From: a virus
Length of the DNA: 63,792 nucleotides
Virus record (IMG/VR): IMGVR_UViG_3300029787_000028
Span: 1,346-65,137 of that record
Direction: 5' to 3' (one strand)
Under the pieces are notes generated by a model, which made no database searches, was not told the origin of the DNA, and worked only from the letters and a program-made list of their open reading frames with translations. Both the position numbers and the translations under genes were made by a program. Of the stretch, positions 60,807 through 62,777 are shown in pieces. Position 1 is the stretch's first letter. Every line of letters starts with the position of its first letter.

Positions 60807-61436
60807 TCACATCAACTCTGAAAGCTGACGGAGGGACAGGTCGCTGAAGCTGACTTCGTTGGCCGTTCCATCCAATGGGAACTCCAAATCAAGCTTCGCT
60901 TGGAAAGCCTTCAGCACCTCTTCCTTTTGAGCCTTCGCCCTTTGTGTGATACGTTCCGTGCTTCCGTTGGCCTTGCTGACCTCAGCGACAGCTTTCTGTG
61001 CTTCCTTGACGGAAGCCTTGGGCTTGTGCTTGGATGGTGTGATAGGTGTATCAGGGCGGCCATGGAAGGCTTTCTCTTGGCGGTCAGCTACCCTTTGGGT
61101 AGGGGTGGCTTTCTTGGTCGTCGTCTTACGACGCTTTGGCTTGGCCTTGGCTTTGGGCTTGGTCACCTTTGGTGGCTCTTGTGTCATACCCTGTGATACG
61201 AGGAACTGCTTGAACAACTCCATCATCTCATCAGCCCCTTGGGGCTGATCTGTGTGTGATACCTTAGGCTTGGGTGCCTTGGGTTTGGGGAGTTCGACTG
61301 CTTCAACGAACTCAAGGAGTTCATTGATGGCCTTTCGAGCAGCCCCTTTCTTCACCTTGGAAGGTGAGAAGTAGAACTCATTGACTGAGACAGACACTGC
61401 CTTCAGCAGTGAAACACGATTGGTTGACTTTTTCAT
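60807..61436 (-). CDS. Lys/Pro/Ala-rich early protein, possibly DNA-binding
   Basis: 209 residues. Middle third is histone H1-like low complexity (KPKAPKPKVSH, KVTKPKAKAKPKRRKTTTKKATP); the ends are helical (KGAARKAINELLEFVEAVELP; VLKAFQAKLDLEFPLDG). A non-specific DNA-binding role is inferred from charge. The gene carries about seven tight hairpins (e.g. 9-bp 61230-61249). The start codon lies in hairpin 61432-61446. Confidence 0.68.
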   Translation of the reverse strand: MKKSTNRVSLLKAVSVSVNEFYFSPSKVKKGAARKAINELLEFVEAVELPKPKAPKPKVSHTDQPQGADEMMELFKQFLVSQGMTQEPPKVTKPKAKAKPKRRKTTTKKATPTQRVADRQEKAFHGRPDTPITPSKHKPKASVKEAQKAVAEVSKANGSTERITQRAKAQKEEVLKAFQAKLDLEFPLDGTANEVSFSDLSLRQLSELM

Positions 61437-61465
61437 TGAAAATGAATTTGAAAATGTGAAGTTTG
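61432..61465 (-). promoter_or_regulatory. Start-codon hairpin plus CAAACTTCACA leader
   Basis: Leader at 61465-61455 (minus), 18 bases before ATG 61436. TTCATT (61432-61437) pairs with AATGAA (61441-61446) around a 3-base loop, so the AUG is inside the stem. Confidence 0.7.
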
Positions 61466-61484
61466 AAGTTGAAAGGGAGGGGTC

Positions 61485-61524
61485 GTTACTGACACTGTTC
61501 GTAAGAACTCACAGTGTCTGTAAC
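61485..61524 (-). promoter_or_regulatory. Strong intergenic hairpin
   Basis: GTTAC-T-GACACTGT (61485-61498) pairs with ACAGTGTC-T-GTAAC (61511-61524): 13 bp with one T-T mismatch; inside, GTTC/GAAC is an alternative. Lies between the genes at 61543 and 61436. No T run after it on the minus strand. Confidence 0.78.
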
Positions 61525-61542
61525 TCCCCCTCTGTTGGTTGG

Positions 61543-61683
61543 TCAGTCCATCAACTCGTTGATGATGGCTTGCTGAAGGTCTGTCGAGAGTTCAAGGAAC
61601 TCCGCATCATACCACAGGGTGGCAGGTGAAGGAGTCCAGAAGATTTCAAGCAAGGCTTGAACTTTGAGGGTTGAATTATCCAT
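61543..61683 (-). CDS. 46-residue early protein
   Basis: ATG 61683 (MDNSTLKVQALLEIFWTPSP) chosen because the CAAACTTCACA leader ends 10 bases before; the longer frame is unlikely. LWYDAEFLELSTDLQQAIINELMD at the end. The short gene holds three perfect mini-hairpins. Function unknown. Confidence 0.6.
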   Translation of the reverse strand: MDNSTLKVQALLEIFWTPSPATLWYDAEFLELSTDLQQAIINELMD

Positions 61684-61704
61684 CGAAGATGATTGTGAAG
61701 TTTG
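61681..61704 (-). promoter_or_regulatory. Start-codon hairpin plus CAAACTTCACA leader
   Basis: Leader at 61704-61694 (minus). CATC (61681-61684) pairs with GATG (61688-61691) around GAA, covering the start codon. Confidence 0.65.
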
Positions 61705-61716
61705 ACAAGGGATAAA

Positions 61717-61738
61717 CAGACCCCCCAAAGGGGGTCTG
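61717..61738 (-). terminator. 9-bp hairpin, possible leftward terminator
   Basis: CAGACCCCC (61717-61725) pairs with GGGGGTCTG (61730-61738), loop CAAA. On the minus strand TTTATCCC follows. It lies between the first and second early genes. Confidence 0.65.
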
Positions 61739-61749
61739 AGATACTGCTT

Positions 61750-62178
61750 TCAGCAGTGGTTGAAGAACTTGATTTTCTCTTCCAAAGGAAGAGAGCGAGC
61801 CCACTTACATTCCTCTTCGAGGACATCTTGGAATTTCATTCCAAAGGGTTGTAGCAGAGCTACAATGTTTCTGAACTCAACAACTGTGTTGTTGACTCTG
61901 TCAGAAGCAGCGAAGTAAACTTCGCCATCTTCGACATCGACTTCAAACAAGGTTCCCTTGTCAGTTTGGTACTGAGCAAATTGAACAAGTTCAAATTGCT
62001 GCTCTTCCAACTCTTCGAGTTGTGACTCGACTTCGTCGAATACTGCCTTCGGCAGCTTGATGTCCTTCGGACATTCGAAGACTCTGATGATTTCGTCAAC
62101 GACGTAGTCGTTGTTGAACAGGGCTACAACTTCGTTGTAAGAGTACTGCTTCGCAGTAGGTTGAATTGATGTGTTCAT
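61750..62178 (-). CDS. First early gene; its DNA is a string of mini-hairpins
   Basis: 142 residues from ATG 62178 (MNTSIQPTAKQYSYNEVVAL), 11 bases after the leader; the extension to 62244 reads through the promoter. Acidic: VESQLEELEEQQFELVQFAQYQ, VDVEDGEVYFAASDRVNNTVVEF, ends KIKFFNHC. No family recognised. It is the first gene from the leftward promoter (62220-62251). About seventeen perfect 5-8 bp inverted repeats with 2-3 base loops fill it. Confidence 0.7.
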   Translation of the reverse strand: MNTSIQPTAKQYSYNEVVALFNNDYVVDEIIRVFECPKDIKLPKAVFDEVESQLEELEEQQFELVQFAQYQTDKGTLFEVDVEDGEVYFAASDRVNNTVVEFRNIVALLQPFGMKFQDVLEEECKWARSLPLEEKIKFFNHC

Positions 62179-62189
62179 CGTAGATGAAT

Positions 62190-62200
62190 TGTGAAGTTTG
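62190..62200 (-). promoter_or_regulatory. CAAACTTCACA leader of the first early gene
   Basis: Exact 11-mer, 11 bases before ATG 62178. The start codon lies in hairpin TTCATC/GATGAA (62174-62188), and a small hairpin GGCAA/TTGCC (62204-62215) precedes the leader. Confidence 0.75.
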
Positions 62201-62219
62201 ACTGGCAACATTGCCGCCA

Positions 62220-62251
62220 CAAAGGTATGGGCAACTTCTGGCAAAATCCAA
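62220..62251 (-). promoter_or_regulatory. Leftward early promoter
   Basis: Minus strand: TTG (62251-62249), 21 bases, TACCTTTG (62227-62220), matching TTG-N19/21-TAnnTTTG. Transcription would begin near 62214, about 36 bases before the first early gene. The best candidate for the main early promoter. Confidence 0.7.
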
Positions 62252-62777
62252 CCCTCTTCTTACTGCGCGATTTTTCCCGCGTGAAGGTTACGAAGTAACC
62301 CGTGCGAAAACAGGCGAAGAAGTGGCCTCGCGCCCAAGCATCATGCGGCGTATGTGCGAGGTTCGACGTTGTTAGTGTTAGTTGGTTGGGATAGTCAATA
62401 GCAAACCCTGTACGTTACTGTATGTGGTCCTTTGGACTGCGCGTGGTAAGGCGTAGGGGTTTTGTCCCCCTGATGGAATTGTCAATACTTTCCAGGGATT
62501 TGGCAGGGCCTTGGCCTTTCTCTTCCGTTGTTAGAACCCCTTGGGGTTCCAACAAAGCTGAAAAGATGTGGCAAAGTTGACCAAAGGTCAAGGGGAGGGG
62601 GGTCTCGCAGCGCATTTGTGTATGCAGGTGTAGACGTACACAGGTGTATATAATCCCCACGGTGCGTATTTCTCCGCTTTTTTCTCAATGATCGTTCGCT
62701 CATCGACTTCGAGTGGGAGCATTAACCACAGCCTGATCAAACACTTACACCCTGTTGCTTCTAGTGGCTGTTCAGGG

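Follow-up and report, generated by a model that had tools for sequence, protein, structure and literature searches.

A conserved gradient of perfect mini-hairpins runs through the first early genes of a likely Bacteroidota podovirus and its relatives

In the virus record IMGVR_UViG_3300029787_000028 the early transcription unit is selected, over its first 1-2 kb, for many short, Watson-Crick-perfect hairpins, which occur wherever the codons permit. The stretch of DNA that was analysed, here called the window (63,792 nucleotides; positions 1346-65137 of a record of 65,137 bases), holds this array with near certainty, and the same array lies in the same place in about 25 non-redundant related IMG/VR contigs. 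We infer that the molecule under selection is DNA. Our leading explanation, to which we give a probability of roughly 0.4, is that the hairpins form in a transcription-coupled manner in the non-template strand or in cruciform DNA of the early region. The array might then represent a new class of cis-element, namely a positional gradient of DNA mini-hairpins embedded in the coding sequence that follows an early promoter, with the proteins evolving around it.

The source of the window is likely a podovirus of Bacteroidota, a host assignment deduced from its proteins, because its large terminase shares 41% identity with those of Flavobacterium elemo phages and 47% with that of a spring podovirus, and one of its proteins contains a crAss-type muzzle domain. 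A contig 91% identical to it spans the ends of the record, which implies a circular or circularly permuted genome. A DNA search of named phages gave no match, and no relatives were found in bacterial genomes. Leftward genes, including those for a primase-helicase and an exonuclease, lie left of 62178, and rightward genes lie right of about 62970. The features of the array locus, and the hammerhead ribozymes found in related contigs, are listed in Table 1.

Table 1. Features of the array locus in the window and hammerhead ribozymes in related contigs
Feature	Coordinates	Strand	Remarks
Array core	61543..62188	(-)	22 perfect hairpins, stem 5-9, loop 2-4; conserved in relatives
Core hairpins 1-6	61549-61564, 61588-61602, 61645-61661, 61717-61738, 61743-61757, 61776-61794	(-)	
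Core hairpins 7-12	61811-61823, 61828-61844, 61849-61865, 61877-61895, 61910-61925, 61947-61961	(-)	
Core hairpins 13-17	61981-61994, 62008-62022, 62015-62030, 62027-62039, 62043-62055	(-)	
Core hairpins 18-22	62060-62074, 62097-62113, 62125-62139, 62144-62158, 62174-62188	(-)	
Start-codon hairpin TTCATC-TAC-GATGAA	62174-62188	(-)	ATG within 3' arm
Thinner downstream part of array	60807..61542	(-)	209-aa gene and spacer before it; includes hairpin 61432-61446 and hairpins in QRVAD and RRKTT codons
Untranslated leader	62189..62646	(-)	hairpins 62204-62215, 62286-62300, 62534-62549, 62577-62591
Promoter-like motif GGGGATTATATA	62647..62658	(-)	conserved; sole exact match within the window
First early gene, 142 aa, pI 4.3	61750..62178	(-)	13 hairpins of stem at least 6
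Second early gene, about 46 aa	61543..61683	(-)	3 hairpins of stem at least 6
Third early gene, 209 aa, pI 10.0	60807..61436	(-)	lysine/arginine-rich helical protein
Hammerheads, L009	8643-8698, 9254-9305		
Hammerheads, L010	8665-8720, 9166-9219		
Hammerheads, L011	9045-9097, 9247-9298		
Hammerheads, L031 (three), L053, L055, L056, L058			
Hammerhead, L003 (Flavobacterium phage elemoF)	16045-16102	(-)	

A sequence-only reading of this DNA had reported dense perfect mini-hairpins at 61550-62188, continuing to 62591. Between 61549 and 62188 we counted 22 non-nested perfect inverted repeats (stem 5-9, loop 2-4; 19 with a stem of at least 6), about 20 times the background rate, and further perfect hairpins begin at 62204, 62286, 62534 and 62577. 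Counted along the whole window, hairpins with a stem of at least 6 reach 25/kb in 61400-62200 vs 1.2/kb elsewhere. The array also extends left of the span first reported, into the 209-aa gene, and is bounded upstream by the promoter-like motif. Its densest kilobase contains 23 hairpins, vs at most 7 in any kilobase scanned of lambda, N4, phi14:2, phi4:1, elemoF and MW202828. The loop counts were reproduced exactly: ten hairpins have a TTC loop on the plus strand, seven of them closed as C(TTC)G, that is C(GAA)G on the sense strand, and these loops fall in all three codon phases (5, 4 and 1).

An origin of the array in chance or codon bias was ruled out by shuffling synonymous codons while keeping the protein (500 replicates). 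The 142-aa gene has 13 hairpins vs a shuffled mean of 2.2 and a maximum of 7 (0/500), the 209-aa gene 5 vs 0.53 (0/500), and the gene of about 46 aa 3 vs 0.61 (2/500). Shuffles of the codon order of the 142-aa gene gave 0.47, which implies that the amino-acid sequence itself has been partly shaped by the hairpins.

The relatives were found by searching with the 209-aa protein, which returned 13 loci, and with its alignment, which returned 30; the contigs were then thinned to the non-redundant set, and only half of one palindromic contig (L013) was used. A search with the 657-aa neighbour gene returned the two closest relatives only. Nearly all relatives have a hairpin peak at the array locus, of 7-30/kb vs about 1, and relatives of the 209-aa protein mark the locus in every one found. 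In more distant relatives, found via a downstream gene, arrays are weaker or absent: L054 has 15 hairpins/kb, together with a distant relative of this protein, and L060 and L062 have 9-10/kb. The 209-aa protein has a near-invariant segment, KATPxxRVADRQEKAFHG; comparison with PDB and Pfam found nothing, and its AlphaFold model is poor (pLDDT 70, pTM 0.26). The 142-aa protein has no PHROG match.

Comparison with the relatives revealed selection on pairing. Between the window and its relative L006, 1 of 366 stem bases has changed, vs 118 of 1496 outside; at third codon positions the counts are 0/55 and 1/21 in stems vs 7/88 and 32/188 outside. Loops mostly change as fast as the outside sequence, or faster. 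The stems of L015 and L016 differ by seven double changes vs one single, and alignment A2 has both-side changes in 34 cells vs 10.0 when shuffled (0/500), its rows being related, so that cells do not count as independent events; sliding the partner by 1-3 columns left 0-8 double-changed cells. Some of these changes pass through the protein. Among relatives, CGTCGTC-GTAA-GACGACG (RRRKTT) becomes TCTAGAC-GTAA-GTCTAGA (SRRKSR) or CTCGAC-GTAA-GTCGAG (TRRKSR), so the amino acids change and the hairpin stays. The hairpin at the QQRVAD site is, depending on the lineage, CAGCAAC-GA-GTTGCTG, CAACTC-AGA-GAGTTG, CTACCC-AAA-GGGTAG or GCTACC-AA-GGTAGC. Turnover is high, with many hairpins replaced by different ones nearby and the density kept. 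These comparisons show purifying selection that maintains the pairing of stems, in part through compensatory changes. Together with the codon shuffles, stem conservation, covariation that at times passes through amino-acid replacements, and turnover at kept density agree with the earlier proposal that selection acts on a nucleic-acid structure, DNA or RNA, and not on protein.

The array is ordered with respect to the start of the early unit. The motif GGGGATTATATA or a near-match precedes the first start codon by 432-480 nt in 9 of the 9 contigs checked. Hairpin density is at background upstream of this motif (1.1/kb), 8.6/kb in the leader (1-6 hairpins of stem at least 6 in each relative) and 19.3/kb in the next 1.2 kb of genes. 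It is greatest at the first start codon and fades over about 1.5 kb; successive 300-bp bins from this codon average 29, 21.5, 14.8, 11.1, 6.7 and 2.9 hairpins/kb. Position counts more than gene identity, although not perfectly: the 209-aa gene family has 24-26 hairpins/kb as first gene (L015-L017) and 9.5-20.6 as third (L006, L009 and L010), and only 15-16 in two lineages where it is also first. In the relatives the array ends upstream of the operon's first hammerhead ribozyme; in seven of them the interval from the promoter-like motif to this hammerhead has 9-21 hairpins/kb, and the next 1.5 kb has 2-10/kb.

Early genes of the window (at 62174-62188 and 61432-61446) and of many relatives share a leader of the form TCAAACTTCAA..TTCATC-NNN-GATGAA, which puts the start ATG inside a hairpin arm. 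Long hairpins of the type TATATACTCTCT..TCACTACGTTCA..GAGAGTATATATA are repeated between early genes in L013:1-3700. The hammerheads have an intact core and strong covariation, and they occupy intergenic gaps of the relatives' early operon, with cleavage placed immediately upstream of a leader and start codon. We found 38 matches in 41 sources, below the Rfam gathering scores where tested, and none in the window. At the gathering score, Rfam 15 returned only tRNAs, and relaxing the E-value limit to 1 brought no match in the array. Hammerheads flanking phage genes are generally known (PMC3088659).

The geometry of the loops bears on which molecule is selected. Enrichment is 33-fold for loops of 3 nt, 11-fold for 2 nt and 8-fold for 4 nt, and loops of 0, 1 and 5-9 bases are near background. 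The closing pair is pyrimidine-loop-purine in 91% of distinct hairpins, and C(GAA)G is the form favoured on the sense strand. Two-base loops are common in DNA, and RNA generally does not form them. In 4-base centres the innermost pair is complementary in 61 of 103 cases vs 25% expected (P 2e-13), which points to true 2-base loops. Loops of the GNA type, a stable class in DNA, are enriched on both strands (57 GNA and 35 TNC among 158 triloops). On the sense strand GAA is the only GNA loop with strong enrichment (GAA loops, mostly on the sense strand: 48 observed vs 4.0 expected), which simple DNA stability does not explain.

Hammerhead stem III hairpins from the same operons of the relatives served as RNA control. 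Loops of the GNRA or UNCG type occur in 9 of 19 of them vs 13 of 271 in the array (Fisher P 8e-7), and their inner pair is complementary in 3 of 13, the RNA expectation (P 0.018); some stem III ends are C-TT-G and C-AA-G. In the array, perfect 7-bp stems are enriched 18-fold, whereas no excess over background is seen for stems carrying a single mismatch, G-T (18) or A-C (21), and double changes of the transition type, which pass through G-U, are not in excess (42:36). Hammerhead stems, which are certainly RNA, likewise have no G-U variation outside one conserved position, so the scarcity of G-U is weak evidence for DNA and not decisive.

The main rival, almost as probable, is a reading in which local hairpins cover the 5' part of the early transcript. 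Such mRNA structure might serve compaction, protect the transcript against nucleases, Rho or defences that target RNA, or provide sites for an RNA-binding protein of the phage, and start codons inside hairpins would tune translation. It fits the confinement of the array to the transcript between the promoter-like motif and, in relatives, the first hammerhead, as well as the fall in density from the 5' end, the sense bias of GAA and GTAA loops and the start codon held within a hairpin. The compensatory stem changes are also those of a conserved mRNA structure, and folding programs rate the same hairpins as equally or more stable in RNA. The sense strand has an RNA fold z of -7.5, though the antisense value is -6.6. 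Against this reading stand the 2-base loops with selected inner pairs and the great excess of triloops over tetraloops, which are unlike RNA, the difference from the genuine RNA hairpins of the same operons, and an array with no excess of G-U stems and few loops of the RNA type. Loop geometry thus favours DNA and confinement to the predicted transcript suits both molecules alike, which leaves DNA a slight lead.

If DNA is the selected molecule, the trigger would be negative superhelical stress, arising during transcription of the early region or its entry into the cell. Mini-hairpins or cruciforms with loops of 2-4 nt would then snap out of the non-template (sense) strand, or of both strands, and these extruded hairpins would take up negative supercoiling and might present an array to a DNA-binding protein of the host or the phage. 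A candidate binder is the basic 209-aa protein from the array locus itself, which has no recognisable fold. The likely outcome would be that early transcription is made efficient or that the incoming genome becomes established. The frequent turnover of hairpins at homologous sites counts against this explanation.

It is unlikely that the array is instead the single-stranded side of a replication origin, an R-loop or unwinding element whose hairpins position a primase or primosome. Hairpins do serve as signals on single-stranded DNA in other systems, the phage encodes an AEP-type primase-DnaB helicase, and the array adjoins the divergent control region, downstream of the promoter-like motif. 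However, GC skew over the whole window follows the direction of the genes and does not switch sharply at the array, the array is one-sided, and an origin would not need dozens of diverse sites.

A mutational origin, in which template switching in short inverted repeats homogenises the arms and functionless hairpins accumulate, is quite improbable. Polymerase template switching yields perfect arms and inverts loops (PMC8604942), and in keeping with it near-perfect stems are not enriched and 5 of 104 loop changes are exact inversions; most loops change by single substitutions. Homogenisation of arms predicts that stems change about as much as the sequence outside, whereas between the window and L006 they change more than 20 times slower than the flanks, with no double change. 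Template switching may touch loops but cannot account for the slow change of the stems.

Two proposals of the sequence-only reading were not supported. Mobile palindromic repeats (REP/RPE-like) were rejected, as the stems are diverse and homologous sites differ by substitutions and not by insertion of units. Hairpin promoters for an encapsidated RNA polymerase, as in N4, are very improbable. The P1-P3 promoters of N4 have perfect 5-7 bp stems and a 3-base G-N-A loop, and form in supercoiled double-stranded DNA (PMC4496689). The array resembles them in stem size, in a 3-base loop of the sheared G-A type and in its early-region location, its sequence predicting hairpins of this form, and N4, scanned in the same way, has its densest kilobase in the early region. 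N4, in contrast, has three sites of conserved sequence upstream of genes and a giant vRNAP, and the array has about 30 sequence-diverse sites, at 20-30 hairpins/kb inside genes. At the two N4 early hairpins checked (90 and 557) the template strand carries the GNA loop, and the GAA of the array is on the sense strand, mostly inside genes. No relative of the N4 vRNAP or of phi14:2 gp65-gp67 was detected among the large window proteins, where very distant ones could escape.

Among other known systems, the hairpin/cruciform of the BPP-1 DGR, in which structure outweighs stem sequence and a sense-strand G-R-N-A loop is conserved (PMC3240598), similarly lies in or beside coding sequence. It is, however, one hairpin only, beside the variable repeat, with a stem of 7-10 bp and a loop of 4 bases, whereas the array has many hairpins, its tetraloops are a minority and it is not known to have a repeat pair; no retroelement or reverse transcriptase was recognised among the window proteins scanned, a part of the genes. 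Known ordered RNA structures in viral coding regions have larger loops, G-U pairs and longer-range pairing. The array shares with them the compensatory evolution of stems within coding sequence, but consists of local perfect hairpins only, with 2-4-base loops, in a dsDNA phage. Frpo/ssi promoters are hairpins in the first-expressed region of incoming conjugative plasmids; they are few, long and imperfect, and act on transferred ssDNA, whereas the array is spread across genes. No comparable array was found in the open literature, the scope of our search (subscription papers lay outside it). We call the array categorically new; the nearest known elements, the N4 and DGR hairpins, are not arrays through genes.

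In these phages whole genes carry a dense second code, a perfect hairpin every 20-40 bases that forces amino-acid and codon choice, at a density set mainly by promoter distance and less by gene identity. If the code is in DNA, selection for hairpins at the level of the strand, during transcription or entry, can extend over kilobases of a dsDNA genome; if it is in RNA, the mRNA has a structured segment of unusual strictness and density. The paired changes and the gradient make the array directly testable under either reading. Conserved protein segments such as QQRVAD should be read with caution, as they can partly reflect a nucleic-acid constraint.

It is worth mentioning that the ends of many IMG/VR contigs (e.g. 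L012, L041-L043 and L047) form a cluster no more than about 3 kb from the array; the hairpins may disturb sequencing or assembly, or a genome end may be nearby. L013:1-9750 is perfectly duplicated in inverted orientation about a hairpin also present in L014, and is probably a snap-back chimera formed at an array hairpin.
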